DNA of 64,000 nt from Dyella sp. M7H15-1 (GTDB lineage: Bacteria; Pseudomonadota; Gammaproteobacteria; Xanthomonadales; Rhodanobacteraceae): positions 3,224,001 to 3,288,000 of the forward strand of contig NZ_CP035300.1 of NCBI RefSeq assembly GCF_004114615.1, read 5' to 3'. Every line of letters starts with the position of its first letter. Position 1 is the first letter of the stretch. The translations under genes were made by a program, and so were the position numbers. This document shows positions 1 through 8,821 of the stretch, piece by piece. The notes beneath the pieces were generated by a model. The model did not search any database and was not told the DNA's origin. It saw nothing but the letters and a program-made list of their open reading frames with translations.

Positions 1-22
1 AGGTCAAACCCTGGCGCGTTGA

Positions 23-139
23 CTGAGCGCTTACTTCGCGACTATCTTTGCGCCGATCAGCCGCTACCCCTTCCCCTTCGGTACCTTCTATCTCTTCTGG
101 CAGGTAGATACGTCAAATCGCTATGGATGTTCAAGGTAA
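23..139 (+). other. possible 3' remnant of a coding region
   Basis: This frame is open for 38 codons after a stop at 20-22 and ends with TAA at 137-139. It is rich in aromatic and hydrophobic residues (FAPISRYPFPFGTFYLFW) and looks protein-like, but it has no start codon and cannot be extended upstream. It may be the degraded end of a gene lying before the window. No function can be assigned and it may be chance. Confidence 0.2.
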
Positions 140-196
140 AGAACAGGAGACTTGACCTCCGAGTGCTCCACCGTCATGGAGCGACATACGCTCTGA

Positions 197-1060
197 GTGA
201 CAAAAGTGGATCCATTCTCCGACCATTTGCCCGCATTGAAGTCTTTTTCAACGATCGCGGACGAAAAGATAGAGCCAAAAGACCCCCAGTCGCTCTTTCT
301 ACTCGAATCGGCCTTACGCGACCTTGCCTTTGGTTCTGACATGCGCCAGCAGTTGGCGGCGCATGAACTTCGAGCAATCGCCTCCGACCCCAGCTATCAG
401 TCGTTTGCTTGGGATCCCTTTTACATTCAACTAGCCGGGAACCAACATTGGCAGCTACGCGTCGGCTTGTACCGCCACTCATCTGAATACATCTACACAA
501 TCCCAATGCACCTTCTGGTTGCGGTGATTGGTCCAGGCGATCTGCAAGCTGTTCATTACAGAATGCCCCCAAACATTATCAATCATACCTTTGACCCCAA
601 CGCCCGCTTGCAGGCCGGAACACGTCGAAGCTACAAACCCGGTGATATTGCGATAGTTGACGGTCGATATGACATCTTTGATGTGAGGATCGATCGCCCT
701 ATTGTGGCGCTCAAGCTGACGTCCGGAATACATCAATCATTACAGTGGGCGTTCCACCGCGAGAGCCTCCTGGCAACCCAAGCCATCGCGGCCGACCCTA
801 TTGATTCTGAGCTTGTATCCATGGCTCAAGCATTAGGAGCTATGCGCCATCATTCCTCCACAGCAACTCTGACCGAACTCGCCAATCACCCAAAGCACTT
901 CGTGAGGTGGGCGGCCATTCAAGCATTGGGACAGATTAATCCCGAAGTTGCGATAGAGAAGCTGAAGGAAGCGACATCCGACAAGCACTCGCACATACGC
1001 CGTGCCGCGATTGCCGGGTTACAAAAGCTAACCAAAGCGAGGGATGAACATGCCTCTTAG
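197..1060 (+). CDS. cupin-like/HEAT-repeat protein A (287 aa), first gene of the peptide locus
   Basis: Function unknown. Residues about 75-185 read as a beta-rich, cupin-like segment, and residues about 200-285 contain two HEAT-type helical repeats (for example HPKHFVRWAAIQALGQI and HSHIRRAAIAGLQKL). It is a diverged paralogue of the next gene: same length, same order of parts. At the position where the next protein has HDHN, this one has HSSEY, and the later His is missing, so the presumed metal site is lost and it may be a non-catalytic partner. The start is GTG at 197 because a TGA lies directly upstream in frame; no good ribosome site is visible, so a later start is possible. It overlaps the next gene by 17 bases, which argues for co-translation. 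Base composition is more A/T-rich than the genes after 6100. Confidence 0.75.
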   Translation: MTKVDPFSDHLPALKSFSTIADEKIEPKDPQSLFLLESALRDLAFGSDMRQQLAAHELRAIASDPSYQSFAWDPFYIQLAGNQHWQLRVGLYRHSSEYIYTIPMHLLVAVIGPGDLQAVHYRMPPNIINHTFDPNARLQAGTRRSYKPGDIAIVDGRYDIFDVRIDRPIVALKLTSGIHQSLQWAFHRESLLATQAIAADPIDSELVSMAQALGAMRHHSSTATLTELANHPKHFVRWAAIQALGQINPEVAIEKLKEATSDKHSHIRRAAIAGLQKLTKARDEHAS

Positions 1061-1955
1061 CGCAACTCCAGACACCGCTGATTCGATTTCTTTACCCGCA
1101 TTTCTTAGCCACGTAGAAGAAAAGGTCGACCTCACATCACCTGATGGCCTCTTTCAGGCATCAGCACAGATGGGATCTCTGGCAAACAATCGATGTTTTC
1201 TAGCCGAATATTTTAACGATGCCATAAAGCGCTTTTGGCATGACGGCATGCTAGCCGCCTATACGCCACAATCAGTCTTGCTTGGCCAAGGGCGTGGCTT
1301 TTTCATGCGCGCCAACATATGGACACCATTAAAGCTCGAGTCTCAGTTCCGCAGTCAAGAAGAAAAGGTCTTCAGCTATCGCAATACCCATGATCACAAC
1401 TTCATGTTTATGACAGTTGGTTATTTTGGCCAGGGATACGAGACCGACATCTATCACTATGACCCATCAAAGGTTATCGGCTATGTCGGTGAGCCCATTG
1501 ATTTGGAATTCATGGGAAGAGAACGTTTAAGTATGGGCAGGGTGATGGTATACAAGGAAAAGGAGGACGTTCATACCCAATTTCCACCAGATGAATTATC
1601 GATTTCCTTGAACGTCATGGTGACTCCAAATACCGATCTCATGTCTGACCAATATTTTTTTGATCCTCATCAAAAGCGGATCACAGACATGCCAGAGATT
1701 GCGCTGGTACATAAAAGAGCATCAATAATCGCCATGCTTGGCTTTATAGCCAACGACAATTCCTTGCAGATATTGCACGATTTAATCGCGAAAGCGCCTT
1801 GCCGACGGGTTCGAGAAGCAGCACTTGTTGCCATATCTAACATGGCAAATTTTAATTCTTCTGATAAAGATTACCTCTATCGCATCGGCGCATCGGACAA
1901 AGATGAATCTGTTCGACGCACCGCGAGGAAACATATTCAAGGACTTAAGGGCTAA
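1044..1955 (+). CDS. cupin-like/HEAT-repeat protein B (303 aa), candidate peptide-modifying enzyme
   Basis: Residues about 100-205 form a beta-rich block with a candidate metal-binding set: THDHN near residue 115 and VHTQFPPDE near 172, a spacing that resembles cupin 2-His/3-His iron sites. Residues about 225-300 are HEAT-type repeats (RRVREAALVAISNMA, DESVRRTARKHI). HEAT repeats commonly bind other proteins or peptides. Placed directly before a 39-codon peptide gene and an ABC transporter, it could be an oxygenase-like enzyme acting on that peptide; this is inference from context, not homology to a characterised enzyme. Alternative start codons exist near 1050 (MPLSAT). There is no signal peptide, so it should be cytoplasmic. 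Confidence 0.75.
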   Translation: MNMPLSATPDTADSISLPAFLSHVEEKVDLTSPDGLFQASAQMGSLANNRCFLAEYFNDAIKRFWHDGMLAAYTPQSVLLGQGRGFFMRANIWTPLKLESQFRSQEEKVFSYRNTHDHNFMFMTVGYFGQGYETDIYHYDPSKVIGYVGEPIDLEFMGRERLSMGRVMVYKEKEDVHTQFPPDELSISLNVMVTPNTDLMSDQYFFDPHQKRITDMPEIALVHKRASIIAMLGFIANDNSLQILHDLIAKAPCRRVREAALVAISNMANFNSSDKDYLYRIGASDKDESVRRTARKHIQGLKG

Positions 1956-1976
1956 TCTGGTGATGCAATGAGAAAA

Positions 1977-2001
1977 GCCGTGGCATGCACCCAGCCACGG
2001 C
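1977..2001 (+). promoter_or_regulatory. stem-loop upstream of the small peptide gene
   Basis: GCCGTGGC at 1977-1984 pairs perfectly with GCCACGGC at 1994-2001 across a 9-base loop. It sits between the end of protein B and the peptide start at 2040. No T-run follows, so it is not a classic terminator. It could be a processing or stabilising hairpin that sets a different level for the peptide message. Confidence 0.5.
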
Positions 2002-2039
2002 ATCCAGTCGATGGGTGCAAATTTGGACAGGAAAACAAC

Positions 2040-2159
2040 ATGAAAGCGATTCACCTAGATGATCTTGAAGTATCCATTGCGCCAACCGGAGCCTCTGATG
2101 CGGTCGGCGGCGCCGTTTGCGGCGGTGTTTTCGTAGTGCTTCTCCTCGTGCCAATGTGA
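2040..2159 (+). CDS. 39-aa peptide with Gly-Gly motifs, candidate secreted precursor peptide
   Basis: An acidic N-terminal half (MKAIHLDDLEVSIAPT) is followed by GASDAVGGAVCGG and then a very hydrophobic tail ending LLLVPM, with a single Cys. The ATG at 2040 is preceded by AGGA at about -12 to -9 (GACAGGAAAACAAC); the longer in-frame start at 1968 runs through the 1977-2001 hairpin and is less likely. The acidic leader plus GG, lying between modifying-enzyme-like genes and an ABC transporter, is the arrangement of bacteriocin or RiPP precursors (established for those families). No match to a known peptide family is recognised. It could instead be a one-helix membrane peptide. Confidence 0.6.
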   Translation: MKAIHLDDLEVSIAPTGASDAVGGAVCGGVFVVLLLVPM

Positions 2160-2176
2160 CAAAGCGATAGGGCATC

Positions 2177-2207
2177 GCAAGACGGCGAATGAACTTCACC
2201 GTCTTGC
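2177..2207 (+). promoter_or_regulatory. hairpin directly after the peptide gene (attenuator-like)
   Basis: GCAAGACGG at 2177-2185 pairs with CCGTCTTGC at 2199-2207, loop 13 bases. It starts 18 bases after the peptide stop and covers the first possible start (2189) of the permease. A hairpin between precursor and transporter genes often lowers expression of downstream genes; here that is an inference. It also favours the later permease start at 2222. Confidence 0.45.
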
Positions 2208-3348
2208 ATGTCTCGTCTAATATGACCTACGAATCCTTGACGCAATTCGAGAAGAAGCTGGCACGACATCTTCCGCGCACGGCGGCAAATGTGTCGCGGC
2301 TTTATTCCCGACATTGGAGGGAGCGAACCAAGCGGCCAGAAACGCTTTATTTCGCATGTCTGATCGCGACGTGTTTATCTGCTTGCATATATCTTGTTAT
2401 GGGTAAACATACGCCCTACACCAGGGCACTACCTGTATCCTCGTTAGTTGGTATTGCAAGCGTAGTCTTGTTTATCGGTGCCATCTTTGGTCTAAAAATC
2501 TCGTCTTGTTTACATGATTCACGAATTAGTCACTGGCTTTTTTGGTCTCATTCACCGTTGCAAGCTCGACGTCAGGCTATCTTTACAGTTATTGTCTCGC
2601 TCGGCTCAGCGCTGAGCATCTCGCAGCTTATAATTTTTGTTCTGTCAAAATTGTTTTTTTTTTGCCTGATCAAAGTCAGATGTGGATCGCAGGATCCTGC
2701 ATTGCTGGATTTATGGCGACATTTTTCTGCACATCCGTATATCCAAGACGTGGAATATATTCGTCATCGTCGCTTATCTTGCGACGGCTTCCCACGGTCA
2801 CTGCAACGCAAATAACGAATCTTCCGTTGCTCGCAGGAATAGCTGGCAGCTTCTTGTTCATAACTTGCGGATTGGCTGCCCTGGCTGTTTTCGAGAATGC
2901 CATCGGTGCGACGTATATCGGCGGCGCTTCTGCGAGCATAGGTTTCTGGTTGAGCTTAAGCGCTCTTAATTCAGGCCTGGTCCGGTTGCACAACCTCCTG
3001 TCTTGGACCGGCGTTGATTTTTTCACGATCGCTATTCGGGCCTTATATCTACCCTTGGTCGCGGCGATCTTGTTATTTTTGCCGCTTATCATTAGCTGTC
3101 TTTGGCTAGGACAATGGTTGTTATTGGCACTATTTGTGGCGGCGTTAATCTTTTTAAGTCATTTAACCTGGATCTGGCTCGTCTCAGACTTAATGGTCTT
3201 GCAGGAAAGGAGCGCCAGGCTTTTTCTGATCGTGAATGGTGTGATTGCAGCGTTGATTGTATCTAGCGGCCCCCTAGCCTTACTCCTCGGCCCTATTCAT
3301 TGGTATTGGGTTGCACGTAAGGGGGCCTCATCATGGAACTCGACATGA
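2189..3348 (+). CDS. ABC transporter permease, interrupted by a frameshift at a T10 run
   Basis: Multi-pass membrane protein of about 386 aa if the two frames are joined. The first frame (2189-2815) gives three membrane segments, and the second (usable from about 2656 to 3348) gives about six more. The switch falls in ten T at 2654-2663: reading changes from KLFFFCLIKV to FFLPDQSQMW. Eleven or eight T, or a -1 slip, would restore one protein. It belongs with the ATPase that overlaps its end by 16 bases and probably exports the peptide or protects against it. No C39 peptidase domain is seen, so leader removal would need another protease. Start uncertain (2189 or 2222). It may be a pseudogene, a slippage-controlled gene, or a sequencing error. 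Confidence 0.65.
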
Positions 3349-4097
3349 CGCCCGTGATTAGCATTGAACAGCTTTGTTTCAGCTACGGAGCGCGTTCTGT
3401 TTTGCAGGGCATCGAGGTTTCCATTGGTGTCGGCGAACTGATCGCGCTGATTGGGGCCAATGCTTCCGGAAAATCCACGCTGATAAATCTCGTTGCCGGC
3501 CTCTTGCGTGGATCTTCAGGGTCGGTCGTCTTTTCGGGGTGGCGCGAAGGCCAACGCTTGCCCATTGGGTATGCCGTGGCACCGGAACGCCTCCCCAAAG
3601 AGCTTACGGGCTATCAGGCTATGGAGTTGGTTGCCGCGGCGCTTCATGCGCATGATTTGCATCGCGCGCTTGCCTATGCCAAGACCGTCGACCTGGAAGG
3701 ACAGCTCGGCCGCTCGCTGTCTTCCTATTCCCTGGGAACGAAGCAGAAACTTGCCATTGCCCTGGCTCTGATCGGATGCCCCCAGTTGCTGCTGCTAGAT
3801 GAATCGCTCAATGGACTTGATATTTATAGCGTTGGCAAGACCTTGGCGTTTCTTAACCACGAAGCTCGGCAATCGCAACTAAGCACCTTGCTGGTGACGC
3901 ACAATCTCGATCTCGCCCAACACTACGCTGACCGGGTATGGCTGCTGGAACAAGGGAGTCTGGTAAAAAAATGGACGCCTCAGGATCTTGCGTGCATGCG
4001 TCGTCGCGGCACGTCCCTGTCCAGGGAAGTGTTGGATCGAGCCTTGGGTGACCTCGCGCCGCTAAATCCTGCCGCCGCGCCATCAAGCCACGCGTAG
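3333..4097 (+). CDS. ABC transporter ATP-binding protein
   Basis: Complete nucleotide-binding subunit, 254 aa. Walker A is GANASGKST near residue 41, the signature is a variant (SYSLGTKQK near 138), Walker B is LLLLDES near 157, and the switch His is in VTHNLD near 192. This is the NatA/BcrA type that pairs with a separate membrane subunit, found in drug or bacteriocin export and self-immunity. It overlaps the permease gene by 16 bases, so the two are translationally coupled. An alternative start at 3345 (MTPVIS) also fits; AAGGGGG at 3318-3324 supports 3333. It closes the peptide locus; after it come about 66 bases and then the end of an insertion sequence. Confidence 0.9.
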   Translation: MELDMTPVISIEQLCFSYGARSVLQGIEVSIGVGELIALIGANASGKSTLINLVAGLLRGSSGSVVFSGWREGQRLPIGYAVAPERLPKELTGYQAMELVAAALHAHDLHRALAYAKTVDLEGQLGRSLSSYSLGTKQKLAIALALIGCPQLLLLDESLNGLDIYSVGKTLAFLNHEARQSQLSTLLVTHNLDLAQHYADRVWLLEQGSLVKKWTPQDLACMRRRGTSLSREVLDRALGDLAPLNPAAAPSSHA

Positions 4098-4163
4098 CGG
4101 GAACTGGCCACAACGATCTACCCGTCTCCGTCCTAAAGGAAAAAGGGGTTGTACTTTCACTCG

Positions 4164-4176
4164 CCTGATTCCGTGA
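4164..4176 (+). repeat. left terminal inverted repeat of the IS
   Basis: CCTGATTCCGTGA, the exact reverse complement of the right end at 5939-5951. Confidence 0.7.
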
Positions 4177-4323
4177 GCTCCCGACTCGCAATCCGCATAC
4201 ACACTTGCTTTGCGAATGATCTCCAACTCACCCACCGGGTGAGCGCTTGCCATGAGTGATCGCTATTCACGCCGCCCTAGCGCTCGATTACGCTAGCGAC
4301 TGGTTCATCGCCGCGTCACTTTC

Positions 4324-5710
4324 ATGCATCCCACGCCCTTCGTTATTCGCCAATCCCCCCGCGACCTAACCGCGATGTCGGGTCTGGCCTTTGTGGGCAT
4401 CGCACTGCACCGCTTTGCCCAGATCGCGCAACACATCGATCCGAAGTTTCCCACGCGCCAGGGTTTGCCAAGCAGCCAGATTCTGGCCGGTTACATCGGC
4501 TTGCTGGCCGAAGGTAAAAGCGACTTCGAGGCGATCGAAGGCAAGCGTGGCGATCGGTTCTTCGCGCAATCGCTGGGCTTGTCCGGTGTGCCGTCGGCGG
4601 CGACCTTGCGTCAGCGCATGGACGCGCTGGGCGTGGCCGGTTCGGAAAGCGTCGATGCGTTCGCTGCGGGTGCCGCTGCTCAAGCGTGGCCGGGCGCATT
4701 TCTCGCCCGTGATCACCGGCCATGTGCCGCTCGATCTGGACGTATTTTGCCTGGACAATTCCGATAGCAAGAAGGAAGGCGTCGGACGCACCTATGCCGG
4801 TTACGACGGGTTCGCGCCCATCGCGGCCTATTTGGGCGGGGAAGCCGGCTATTGTCTGGCGCTGGAGCTGCGCGATGGCACCCAGCACAGCGCCAAGGAA
4901 ACCCAGTACGTGCTGGAGCGGGTGATTCCACGGGCGCGGGCGTTGACCAGCGCGCCGATCCTGCTGCGCTGGGATTCGGGTTTCGACAGCGAGCGCATGT
5001 TCGTCACCGCGCTCGAACAAGGCCAAGGCCGCGTCGATGTGTTGGGCACATGGAATCCACGCAGCTTCGATGTCGAAGGCTGTGCGGCGGACAAGCGTGC
5101 CGATGCCACGACGGCGTGGGTGTCGCCCCGCGAGGGCAAGCGCATCACCACCTGGGAAACCCAAGGGCGAATGCTCACCTTGGCCGATGGCCGCAGCGTG
5201 CGCTTGCGGCGCATCCTGCGTCTGACCGAGCGCACGATCAAAGCCGACGGCACTGCACTGTTGTTTCCCGAAGTGGAGATCGACGGTTGGGAAACCACCC
5301 TGGCCGAGCCGATCGAAACGATCATCGCGTTGTACCAGGATCACGGCACTCACGAGCAGTTCCACAGCGAGTTCAAGAGCGACCTGGACCTGGAGCGCTT
5401 GCCGAGCGGCAAATTCAACACCAACGCTCTGGTGCTGAGCTTGGCGGCAGTGGCTTACAACTTCCTGCGTCTGATCGGCCAGCAAGCGCTGCTGGGCAAG
5501 GATGTCCCGCTGCGTCATCCGGTCAAACGTCGACGCTTGAAGACGGTGATGCAGGAGATGATGCGGATAGCCGCGCAACGGACCCTGCACGCGCGACGGG
5601 TGACGCTCAACTTCGACCGGCACTGTCCCGTGTTCAAGGTGTGGCGGACGCTCTATGTCACCTGGACCGCCGACGACTGGCTGCCGCCTGTGGCGGCGCG
5701 CTGCACCTAG
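4324..5710 (+). pseudogene. IS1380-family transposase, frameshifted
   Basis: A DDE transposase of about 461 aa if repaired. Typical IS1380 features are DNSDSKKEGVGRTYAGYDGF near the first catalytic region and LGGEAGYCLALELRDG, then RWDSGFDSE and a C-terminal DHGTHEQFHSEFKSDLD. The N-terminal part (about 116 aa) is in one frame and the rest in another. The break is in GGG at 4668-4670: removing one G reads VDAFAAVPLLKR and restores the frame. The element is therefore probably unable to transpose by itself unless slippage or a sequencing error is involved. A long open frame on the opposite strand is only a shadow of this gene. Confidence 0.85.
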
Positions 5711-5938
5711 CCCGGGCCTGGCCAGCAACTCATCAATCATCCCTACGCGCGAACGATCGCGAGATGTGCGGCTGCACGCAAGCATGGAAATGACCCCGGC
5801 GATGCCTGCAAGCGGCGGTGTAAAAGCCCGCGCGCCGCGGTGAGTGGTTCTTTTCCTGACATCCGATAGCCGAATGCGGCATCACCATCGCGCTGATTGC
5901 CTCCTTGGACGGCCAAGCGGAATCATGCCGAGGAGGGG

Positions 5939-5951
5939 TCACGGAATCAGG
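5939..5951 (-). repeat. right terminal inverted repeat of the IS
   Basis: TCACGGAATCAGG, pairing with 4164-4176 over all 13 bases. Confidence 0.7.
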
Positions 5952-6138
5952 TAGTGTCTAAAGTAAATTACGACATGTTAATAGGGTCCACTTTAAGTCT
6001 GCAGAGCGACGTAAGATCGTGAATGGCAAAACATCCGATTCGAAAGAAGCGCTCCGCGAAGACAAAAGTGATAGCCCAAAGGAGTACATGCAGGTACCAC
6101 GGATACAAAAGAAAAAAAGAGGGACAAAAATTGGGTGA
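5952..6138. other. A/T-rich spacer without a recognisable gene
   Basis: This stretch lies between the right end of the insertion sequence and the rsmE stop. A 71-codon open frame on the minus strand exists here, but it has no ribosome site, runs into rsmE and shows no recognisable motif. I see no promoter or terminator that I can defend. Confidence 0.4.
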
Positions 6139-6876
6139 TTAAAAATCCCCATGCAACGCCTGCAGCGCGGCAAGCGTTGCCAGGCCAGCAGTCTCCGTGC
6201 GCAAAATCCGCGGCCCTAATCGCAAGCCCTGAAAACCCGCCTCCCGCAAGGCCGCCACATCGCGCTCGCCAAGGCCACCCTCCGGTCCCACCACCAGCAA
6301 GCCGCCGGCATCGCCAAAGCGCAACTCGCGCGCCCGCAACGTTCCTTCAGGCAACAGCGCCAAGCGTTGCGCACCGTTGTCATCAGCCAGGCTGTTCAGC
6401 CAATCCGGCAATGTCTGCGCCGGCATCACTTCAGGCATACGAACCCGACCACTTTGCTCACACGCACTAGCCATTACCGCACGCCAATGCAGCAGGCGCT
6501 TTTCCGCGCGCGATGCATCCAGCTTGACTTCGGAGCGTTCGGTAAGCAGTGGCACGAGACGAACAACACCCAGTTCGGTGGCCTTCTGCACGATCAGGTC
6601 CATTTTTTCACCGCGAGCGACGCCTTGCGCGAGGGTGAGCTTAAGGGGTGATTCGTTGCGGATTTGCTCGCGGTCTTCGATGCGCACGGTGGCGTCGCGT
6701 TTACCGATGGAGGTGAGGGTGGCGGTGTAGTCATAACCATCGCCATTGAAGAGGGTGAGTATGTCGCCGGCATCCATACGCAGTACGCGCGTCACGTGCT
6801 CGGCTGCCTGTTGGGGCAGGGCCAGTTCGGCGGTGAGGGAGAGCGGTTGGTCGATGTGAATGCGGGTGCTGCGCAT
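6139..6876 (-). CDS. rsmE: 16S rRNA (uracil(1498)-N3)-methyltransferase
   Basis: Methylates U1498 of 16S rRNA using S-adenosylmethionine. Length 245 aa is typical. The N-terminal PUA-like part (residues 1-70, with HVTRVLRMDAGD) precedes a SPOUT (knotted) domain whose late motifs are VGPEGGLGERDV near residue 192 and LRLGPRILRTETA near 217, which form the cofactor-binding knot. The central EKMDLIVQKATELGV segment is characteristic of the family. It is transcribed alone on the minus strand, with a short A/T-rich upstream gap containing a 14-bp palindrome. Confidence 0.95.
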   Translation of the reverse strand: MRSTRIHIDQPLSLTAELALPQQAAEHVTRVLRMDAGDILTLFNGDGYDYTATLTSIGKRDATVRIEDREQIRNESPLKLTLAQGVARGEKMDLIVQKATELGVVRLVPLLTERSEVKLDASRAEKRLLHWRAVMASACEQSGRVRMPEVMPAQTLPDWLNSLADDNGAQRLALLPEGTLRARELRFGDAGGLLVVGPEGGLGERDVAALREAGFQGLRLGPRILRTETAGLATLAALQALHGDF

Positions 6877-6881
6877 ACAAG

Positions 6882-6895
6882 TTTTGTTAACAAAA
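6882..6895. promoter_or_regulatory. 14-bp perfect palindrome in front of rsmE
   Basis: TTTTGTTAACAAAA lies 5 bases upstream of the rsmE start. A perfect A/T palindrome in a GC-rich genome could be an operator or part of the promoter region; no known regulator consensus is recognised. Confidence 0.3.
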
Positions 6896-7053
6896 AGATT
6901 GTCTCAGCATACAACTTGCTGTGTTTGGCTGTTCATCCAGATGAACATAAATAGCCGTCTTTATGGATGGCCCTTGCGGTGGGGGCGGCACCGTATCAGC
7001 ATTGCTGGTTGTCCACGAAGGCTCGTTTCCCCGATCGCGAGCAGGAGGTTGCC

Positions 7054-7383
7054 ATGTCCAAGCTTGTTTCCGTTGTTGTGTTGCTGGCCACTGCCGGCTT
7101 TGCTATGGCGACACGCGGAGCGCCGCAAACGACCGTCCCGCCGTCCAACCAAGCCGCAGCCACCGCCGCCGCACCGAACAATCATTCACCGATCAAGCCC
7201 GGCGACCATAATTGTGTGCGTGATACGGGCAGCTTGATTCCGCCCAAGAAGGGCGAGTGTCTGCCCGTGACCGGTCGCAGCTACAGCAAGCAAGACATTG
7301 ATCGCACCGGTAAAACCACGGTCGCGGGCGCGCTGAAGGATCTGGATCCGAGCGTTACGGTCCGCGGTAACGGTGGCAATTAG
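7054..7383 (+). CDS. small secreted protein of unknown function (109 aa)
   Basis: Residues 1-23 form a signal peptide (MSKLVSVVVLLATAGFAMA), followed by a low-complexity Ala/Pro/Thr linker to about residue 50. The mature part has two Cys (HNCVRD and GECLPV) that may form a disulfide, and then RSYSKQDIDRTGKTTVAGALKDLDPSV, a helix-like motif. The ATG at 7054 has AGGAGG 5 bases upstream and begins the signal peptide, so it is preferred over the longer frame from 6967. It is probably periplasmic. The family is not recognised. It ends 28 bases before the convergent bioA. Confidence 0.75.
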   Translation: MSKLVSVVVLLATAGFAMATRGAPQTTVPPSNQAAATAAAPNNHSPIKPGDHNCVRDTGSLIPPKKGECLPVTGRSYSKQDIDRTGKTTVAGALKDLDPSVTVRGNGGN

Positions 7384-7411
7384 TCTTGTTATTTGATTGC
7401 TGGTCGGCGAC

Positions 7412-8821
7412 TCAGCGCTTTACGGCTTGCTCGATGCCCTCACCAGCCACCCGCACGAGGTGGTCGATGTCGTTTTCGTCAACGACATAAGGCGGCATGA
7501 AATAAATCACATGGCCTAACGGGCGCAACAAGGCGCCGTGTTGCAAGCCGTGCAGGTAAACCCGCAAGCCGCGCCGTTCTTCCGCAGGGAAAGGCAAGCG
7601 CGTTGCCTTATCGGCAACCAGCTCGATCGCCGCGATCATGCCTTGCTGACGCACATCGGAGACATGTGGATGATCGCGGAACGGTTCCAGCCGCTTGGCA
7701 AGGTGGGCGGACAGCACACGATTGCGCGCTAGCACGGGTTCGTCGCGAAAGATAGCCAAGGTTTCCAATGCGGCACGGCAGGCCAGCGGATTGCCGGTGT
7801 AGCTGTGGGAATGCAGGAATGCCTTGCCCGCGCTGTATTCGGCATAGAACGCGTCATAGATAGGCTGTGTGGTCAGTACCGCCGATAGCGGCAGCGTACC
7901 GCCGGTCAATCCCTTGGACAGGCACATGAAGTCGGGCGCGATGCCTGCCTGTTCGCAAGCAAACAGGGTGCCGGTGCGGCCAAAGCCCACGGCGATTTCA
8001 TCGGCGATCAGATGCACGTTGTAGCGATCGCATAGGCTGCGCAATCCACTCAGATAGCTGGGGTGATACATGCGCATGCCGCCGGCGCATTGCACCAGTG
8101 GCTCGACGATCACGGCACAGGTTTCATGAGCATGGTGTTCAAGCAGGTGACGCATGGCTTCGAGCCGCCGTGTGGCGGTCTGCTCTGGCGATTCCCCCGG
8201 CTCACCTTCATAGGCATCGGGTGATGGCGCAAGCAGGGGGGTAAGCAGCAACGGTGCATAGGTCTTGCGATACAACGCAACATCGCTCACCGACAAAGCC
8301 CCTAGCGTTTCACCGTGATAGCTGCCGGTGAGCGCGATAAAGCGGGTCTTCTGGCCATGGCCTTGGTTGAGCCAGTAGTGGAAGCTCATCTTCAGCGCCA
8401 CTTCGATGGCGGCCGAACCATTGTCCGCGAAGAACACTTTGTCGAGCCCGGCCGGCGTGATCTTGACCAACTGCTCTGCCAGCTCAATCGCCGGTGGATG
8501 GGTGAAGCCGGCAAAGATCACGTGTTCCAGCGTTTTGGCCTGCTCGGCGAGGCCCGCCGCGATGCGTGGATTGGCGTGGCCAAACAGGTTGGTCCACCAG
8601 GAGCTGATGCCGTCCAGATAACGGCGACCGTCGGCATCGATCAGCCACGGACCTTCACCCCGCACGATGGGCACCATCGGCACGTGTTCGTGATCGTGCA
8701 TCTGGGTGCAGGGGTGCCAGATGTGCTGCAGGTCGCGCCGGGCCAGGGCGATGTTGGCGTCGTGGGGTTGAGTCATCCGGCTATGATCGGGGGATTGGGC
8801 CGTGGTCTCAAGGGCAGACAT
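7412..8821 (-). CDS. bioA: adenosylmethionine-8-amino-7-oxononanoate aminotransferase
   Basis: Biotin synthesis enzyme that transfers the amino group of SAM to KAPA to make DAPA, using PLP. Class III aminotransferase landmarks are HIWHPCTQMHDH near the N-terminus, DGISSWWTNLFGH, GSYHGETLGALSV, the DEIAVGFGRTGTLFACE stretch, and the PLP lysine in LSKGLTGG. The IWHPCTQM and SSWW motifs are typical of BioA rather than of other class III enzymes. I chose ATG 8821 (MSALETT) because GGAG stands 10 bases before it; the frame extends further upstream, and a start at 8776 (MTQPHD) is possible but lacks a ribosome site. Length 469 aa. It is divergent from gspN with about 50 bases between starts, so the two promoters must share this short gap or overlap. 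Confidence 0.95.
   Translation of the reverse strand: MSALETTAQSPDHSRMTQPHDANIALARRDLQHIWHPCTQMHDHEHVPMVPIVRGEGPWLIDADGRRYLDGISSWWTNLFGHANPRIAAGLAEQAKTLEHVIFAGFTHPPAIELAEQLVKITPAGLDKVFFADNGSAAIEVALKMSFHYWLNQGHGQKTRFIALTGSYHGETLGALSVSDVALYRKTYAPLLLTPLLAPSPDAYEGEPGESPEQTATRRLEAMRHLLEHHAHETCAVIVEPLVQCAGGMRMYHPSYLSGLRSLCDRYNVHLIADEIAVGFGRTGTLFACEQAGIAPDFMCLSKGLTGGTLPLSAVLTTQPIYDAFYAEYSAGKAFLHSHSYTGNPLACRAALETLAIFRDEPVLARNRVLSAHLAKRLEPFRDHPHVSDVRQQGMIAAIELVADKATRLPFPAEERRGLRVYLHGLQHGALLRPLGHVIYFMPPYVVDENDIDHLVRVAGEGIEQAVKR

Follow-up and report, generated by a model that had tools for sequence, protein, structure and literature searches.

Small-molecule thiol dioxygenases carry a Ser-His-Tyr triad, and the protein-directed enzymes ADO and PCO have X-Asp-Leu at that place (PMC10966181). 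Arg60 of CDO holds the substrate carboxylate (PMC8503633), and the substrates of ADO and PCO are proteins with an N-terminal Cys (PMC8503633, PMC10966181). Among ribosomally synthesised and post-translationally modified peptides (RiPPs), the daptides form a class with an invariant C-terminal Thr, a dehydrogenase, an aminotransferase, a methyltransferase and a RiPP recognition element (RRE) protein (PMC10036551), while PbsQ is a cupin-like (JmjC-type) RiPP hydroxylase, a tailoring enzyme that acts after an MNIO and an arginase (PMC12257519). Here, we describe a locus at the left end of a 64,000-nucleotide stretch of the Dyella sp. M7H15-1 genome (contig NZ_CP035300.1, positions 3,224,001 to 3,288,000; "the window" hereafter), in which two adjoining genes, A and B, are followed by a gene for a 39-aa peptide, P, and by genes of an ATP-binding cassette (ABC) transporter. 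The locus is probably one copy of a widespread and undescribed RiPP-like system in which B, a putative Fe/O2 enzyme, and A, a pseudoenzyme, would modify leader-bearing peptides.

An initial annotation, made from the sequence alone, had described the products of A and B as cupin-like proteins with HEAT repeats. AlphaFold2 models of both proteins (pLDDT 93.6 for B and 95.8 for A) were searched with Foldseek, and the best PDB match was in each case the Pseudomonas aeruginosa thiol dioxygenase 4tlf (E = 8.2e-8 and probability 1.00 for B, 1.0e-7 for A), followed by CDO, mercaptosuccinate dioxygenase (MSDO) and, for A, also ADO. The cupin-like character thus holds for both proteins. HEAT repeats are clear in A (PF13646, HEAT_2, 1.3e-13); the match in B is weak (1e-5, slightly below the cut-off). 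A and B are therefore both predicted to consist of a cupin domain of the thiol-dioxygenase fold and a C-terminal HEAT domain. The fold and the proposed HDH...H 3-His ligands of B are shared with the thiol dioxygenases (CDO, the 3-mercaptopropionate dioxygenase 4tlf, ADO/PCO). Unlike these enzymes, A and B possess the HEAT domain, always occur as a pair of paralogues (hhalign E 1.6e-10) and adjoin precursor-peptide genes. The N-terminal domain of B is covered by no Pfam or NCBIfam model.

All of 81 B proteins have R89, W93, H116, H118, N119, F120, T124, G131, Y132, H177, Q179 and Q203; of these residues, the three His are the proposed iron ligands. In the profile alignment, B and genuine CDO_I proteins match weakly (E 8e-4 to 2e-3), yet in a colinear way, with HDH opposite HDH, H177 opposite the third His and SISLNVM opposite AVSLHIY. 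The B family consequently has Ser-Asn-Met/Leu where small-molecule thiol dioxygenases have Ser-His-Tyr, and CDO Arg60 falls opposite P75/Q76. The loss of the triad, together with the lack of an Arg60 equivalent, would fit a B that acts on peptides and not on free amino acids. Two earlier assignments were given up after the profile alignment: R89 as the equivalent of Arg60, which the alignment puts at P75/Q76, and S186/S188/N190 as the counterpart of the triad, which was replaced by S188/N190/M192. When the window A was aligned with B (hhalign), HDH of B stood opposite a gap and H177 opposite a Phe, and no conserved active site was seen in A. As judged by this alignment, the window A has lost the 3-His site and B keeps the predicted one, which fits the roles of partner and enzyme that had been proposed for the two proteins. 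The window's genome also has two ordinary CDO_I (PF05995) genes, at G000:C1:1706289 and G000:C1:555618, away from the locus.

The family was collected by means of a single pattern, which was derived from seven aligned B proteins and run on genome contigs. B homologues are encoded in 225 genome-contig stretches, of which 80 were kept for the family analysis. The kept stretches include gammaproteobacterial ones (Xanthomonas, Lysobacter, Nevskia, Alteromonas, Rheinheimera and Ferrimonas), many from sphingomonads, and others from Acidobacteria, Blastopirellula, Bacteroidota, Nannocystis and Streptomyces. In nearly all loci where both genes were called, A is located directly upstream of B.

P has a leader motif at residues ca. 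6-18, a hydrophobic Gly/Val tail and a Cys at position 27. The peptide is conserved in relatives: 31 of its 39 residues (79%) are identical in Xanthomonas bromi, with a nucleotide identity of just 83/120, dN of 0.14 and saturated dS; A and B are conserved at 45% and 55%, respectively, between the window and X. bromi. Both X. bromi and X. axonopodis carry a 79%-identical P at the same place. By these comparisons, P is under purifying selection.

Peptides in other loci were looked for by a motif-free scan of the flanks for short open reading frames (ORFs) that have a ribosome-binding site and encode a hydrophobic stretch, which revealed peptides beside A/B in ca. 35 loci; a motif-guided search raised the number to at least 52. 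The resulting set comprises the listed precursors plus those of L022 and L040 (identical or near-identical). The common pattern is L..L[DE]..[VT][GA]..[GS][SA], followed by a variable hydrophobic tail rich in Gly, Val and Ile. Many of the peptide genes are found ca. 150 bp upstream of A, and in Xanthomonas and the window, P comes after B. In Nevskiaceae (L025:7522-7659, L024:7800-7937), peptides of the same style (MNEQIIEVLEIAELEYDVGGVG...) are located ca. 2.5 kb downstream of B and not upstream of A.

The density of the motif with a hydrophobic tail is 0.526/kb around the start of A versus 0.003/kb elsewhere in the same loci (ca. 175-fold), a comparison that is circular since the motif was derived from these loci. 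An independent test was therefore added, in which a profile built from 38 peptides, nearly all of them alphaproteobacterial, was used to search 32 other loci with their 4,922 short ORFs. The top 23 matches were peptides beside A/B, with the Xanthomonas P at 3.5e-5, and low-scoring matches upstream of A were obtained in Bacteroidota (L047, MNTNFKRVRLNDLEVNVSPVQSEQSSQAVVSLVVVVIIAL; L044) and Streptomyces (L028). Small ORFs next to A/B homologues were thus detected by hydrophobicity, by motif and by an independent profile. The conservation of P in X. bromi and the density excess around the start of A likewise speak against a chance arrangement.

Tandem arrays of at least four identical or near-identical precursor genes are present in Ferrimonas (L062:7122-7912) and Rheinheimera (L069:7197-7902), and Lysobacter (L050) and Sphingomonas (L065) each have three different precursors, whose leaders are alike and whose tails differ. 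Both arrangements are typical of RiPP precursors. A VGG..C motif recurs in Xanthomonas, Pseudoduganella, Niveispirillum, Lysobacter, Ferrimonas, Rheinheimera and Sphingosinicella. GG, which had been singled out in the initial annotation, is not universal as a cleavage motif. The C-terminal residue of P is Met, and the C-termini of the precursors vary. The peptides fall outside the Pfam and NCBIfam models. The family thus combines an encoded precursor, a conserved leader with a variable core and adjoining genes for candidate modifying enzymes, by which RiPPs are recognized.

We propose that the N-terminal half of P would be a recognition leader and its hydrophobic, Gly/Val/Ile-rich C-terminal half the core. 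A, its metal site lost, would form a complex with B and bind the leader, perhaps through the HEAT repeats, and B, with its 3-His iron site, would use O2 to oxidise a core residue. In P this may be Cys27 of VGG..C; in precursors that have no Cys, it would be another residue. The adjoining ABC proteins, where present, would export the product. A role of the locus in peptide maturation, as had been suggested initially, appears likely given the recurrence of the gene set, the leader motif and the result with the independent peptide profile; with less assurance, we favour an O2-dependent peptide oxygenase as the function of B.

As had been stated before, no signature enzyme of a described RiPP class (LanM, YcaO, radical SAM, MNIO or others) is encoded by the neighbouring ORFs, which correspond to A, B, the ABC proteins, insertion sequence (IS) transposases, rsmE and bioA. 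We found no known family that covers the system and, in the open-licence literature, no publication that connects RiPPs with HEAT-cupin or thiol-dioxygenase proteins. PbsQ is similar in being a cupin-fold oxygenase that acts on a RiPP precursor; it is JmjC-related, whereas in the window a pair of the thiol-dioxygenase type is the sole candidate modifying enzyme. The phycobilin lyases CpcE/CpcF likewise act on a polypeptide, consist of two HEAT-protein subunits and give weak HEAT-level matches to A, but they attach bilins, lack a cupin domain and a precursor peptide, and their similarity to A is confined to the HEAT repeats. The locus is therefore a candidate for a new RiPP class. A fuller version of this proposal, to which we give somewhat less than an even chance, is that the class has as its defining feature a thiol-dioxygenase-HEAT heterodimer, with B as the catalytic subunit and A as a pseudoenzyme, which performs an O2-dependent reaction on non-Cys as well as Cys residues, that the class extends over Proteobacteria, Bacteroidota, Acidobacteriota, Planctomycetota and Actinomycetota, and that it represents a third branch of thiol-dioxygenase-fold enzymes, one for peptide maturation.

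The features of the locus are collected in Table 1. As described initially, A, B, the peptide gene and the ABC genes are all on the same strand; A and B overlap by 17 nt. The locus is also A/T-richer than its surroundings, as claimed, with a GC content of 44-57% versus ca. 61% outside. An ABC permease gene is indeed present; it is split by a frameshift at a homopolymer and is not the one ORF that had been assumed. The X. bromi homologue is a single intact ORF of 383 aa (L022:10141-11292). The window ATPase is 50% identical to that of X. bromi, which adjoins the X. bromi A-B-P genes.

Table 1. Coordinates of the locus features in the window.
Feature	Position	Strand	Description
Gene A	197..1060	+	ORF, 287 aa, GTG start
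Gene B	1044..1955	+	ORF, 303 aa
H116-D117-H118 codons of B	1389..1397	+	First two proposed iron ligands; align with HDH of CDO_I proteins
H177 codon of B	1572..1574	+	Third proposed iron ligand
S188-x-N190-x-M192 of B	1605..1619	+	Replaces the Ser-His-Tyr triad; hhalign with CDO_I proteins
Gene P	2040..2159	+	39-aa ORF, MKAIHLDDLEVSIAPTGASDAVGGAVCGGVFVVLLLVPM; ribosome-binding site AGGA before its ATG
ABC permease	2189..3348	+	Broken; frameshift gives ORFs 2189-2815 and 2542-3348
T10 homopolymer	2654..2663	+	At the permease frameshift
ABC transporter ATPase	3333..4097	+	PF00005, 3e-19

Export by ABC proteins had been part of the initial proposal. An ABC ATPase and permease, or HlyD, ABC and MacB proteins, are encoded next to A/B in Xanthomonas, Lysobacter, Niveispirillum, Ferrimonas, Rheinheimera, Tahibacter, Alteromonas and Dyella, so the claim stands for a part of the family. 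It does not extend to the sphingomonad loci, where no exporter cluster was seen and housekeeping genes are the usual neighbours; a locally encoded exporter is, therefore, not a defining part of the system. In the window, the frameshift in the permease makes export doubtful.

To the left of the island are a seryl-tRNA synthetase gene and an IS21-type element, and to the right a broken transposase gene (PF13701), rsmE and bioA; the names serS and bioA were read from translations. The IS21-type istA/istB pair is located just left of the window (L003:15382-17773, minus strand), and the right-hand border of the island is the frameshifted IS1380-type transposase (PF13701, window 4324-5710). The island stands between two copies of a perfect 30-bp direct repeat, ATCATGCCGAGGAGGGGTCACGGAATCAGG, one at L004:1921-1950 (80 bp ahead of the first window position) and one at window 5922-5951, at a distance of 6,002 bp. 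The 28-bp core of this repeat is present a third time in the same genome, at G000:C1:2045582. The repeat may be what remains of an IS or may mark where an insertion or a recombination event had its boundary. Beside the IS21-like element, at L004:1780-1920, there are short CGGTCACG...CCGAAA-type repeats in both orientations, which are probably the terminal repeats of this element.

The window B is 55-58% identical to Xanthomonas proteins versus 30-32% to B of its own GTDB genus, and the system is present in 11/148 genomes of the window's bacterial family. The closer similarity to Xanthomonas, the IS elements and the patchy spread suggest that the locus was gained horizontally. Plasmid carriage was considered and dropped, as there was one weak match only. 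In X. axonopodis (L020:8109-8997), A is frameshifted and the permease is also broken, and in X. populi (L021:1823-2647), A looks interrupted. Thus, xanthomonads show repeated decay of the cluster.

Several observations speak against the peptide-oxidation reading. The Pfam CDO_I model (PF05995) matched none of 66 B proteins at E 0.1, the sequence-profile similarity between B and CDO is weak (E about 1e-3), and neither the Ser-His-Tyr triad nor Arg60 is kept in B. The sphingomonad loci lack an exporter cluster, a protease for leader removal was not found, and the window copy, with its broken permease, may be decaying. In addition, Cys is present in 22/57 precursors, and a single thiol-oxidation reaction cannot, therefore, explain the family.

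The last point bears directly on the most probable alternative, which is that B is to peptides what ADO/PCO are to proteins, a thiol dioxygenase specific for Cys, and converts Cys27 of P to cysteine sulfinic acid (+32 Da). It is a special case of the reading proposed above and is listed apart since its prediction differs. The thiol-dioxygenase fold with its 3-His site, the action of ADO/PCO on the N-terminal Cys of proteins and the recurrence of VGG..C all agree with it; yet 35/57 precursors have no Cys while the active site of B is the same throughout, and none of the B active-site columns counted clearly separates Cys from non-Cys loci. We consider this alternative unlikely. Modification of the Cys, as suggested in the initial annotation, accordingly is possible for P but cannot be general.

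Slightly less probable still is that A and B form a holding or sensing complex, in which HEAT repeats and a metal cupin would act, for example, as an O2/thiol sensor or a chaperone without chemical modification, and that P is a small hydrophobic membrane peptide acting unmodified, such as an ABC small subunit or a bacteriocin. Small hydrophobic peptides are frequently membrane subunits; the sphingomonad units among housekeeping genes and the altered triad of B would also be in line with such a complex. Against it, the metal-site residues of B are invariant in all 81 proteins across phyla, as expected of a catalyst; a kept leader, a diversified tail and tandem arrays are the pattern of RiPP substrates and not of a subunit; and the peptide is found both with and without ABC genes. 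An anti-phage defence function was rejected separately: PADLOC matches to A reflected HEAT repeats only, and those to the ATPase were generic AAA.

It is improbable that the window copy is an island of horizontal origin that is dying and has no present function. IS elements on both sides, the 30-bp direct repeat, the frameshifted permease and the frameshifted A of X. axonopodis are what one would expect of such an island, but A, B and P of the window are intact, and the association recurs across phyla, so that one decaying copy would leave the family unexplained. That the system falls among the daptides, or in some other described RiPP class whose oxidative step has two components, is very improbable and was rejected, for although the acidic L..LE leader, hydrophobic core, several precursors per cluster, accessory and catalytic protein pair and ABC exporter are alike, and 2/35 peptides touch the daptide precursor model (E 0.028), this weak match is unsupported by enzymes or a C-terminal Thr: the PF00465 dehydrogenase, pyridoxal phosphate aminotransferase, methyltransferase and RRE protein are encoded neither by window ORFs at 1-8000 nor by neighbours common across relatives, and the daptide models match neither A nor B.

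If the proposed peptide oxidation is correct, a RiPP class would be added that is modified by an enzyme of the thiol-dioxygenase fold, a fold so far associated with sulphur metabolism and with oxygen sensing; hundreds of hypothetical HEAT-repeat proteins and unannotated short ORFs would also be explained. Since the triad is replaced while the 3-His set is invariant, the family would also inform which residues decide the function of the iron site. Its wide spread and tandem precursors would provide many independent substrates for working out the chemistry.

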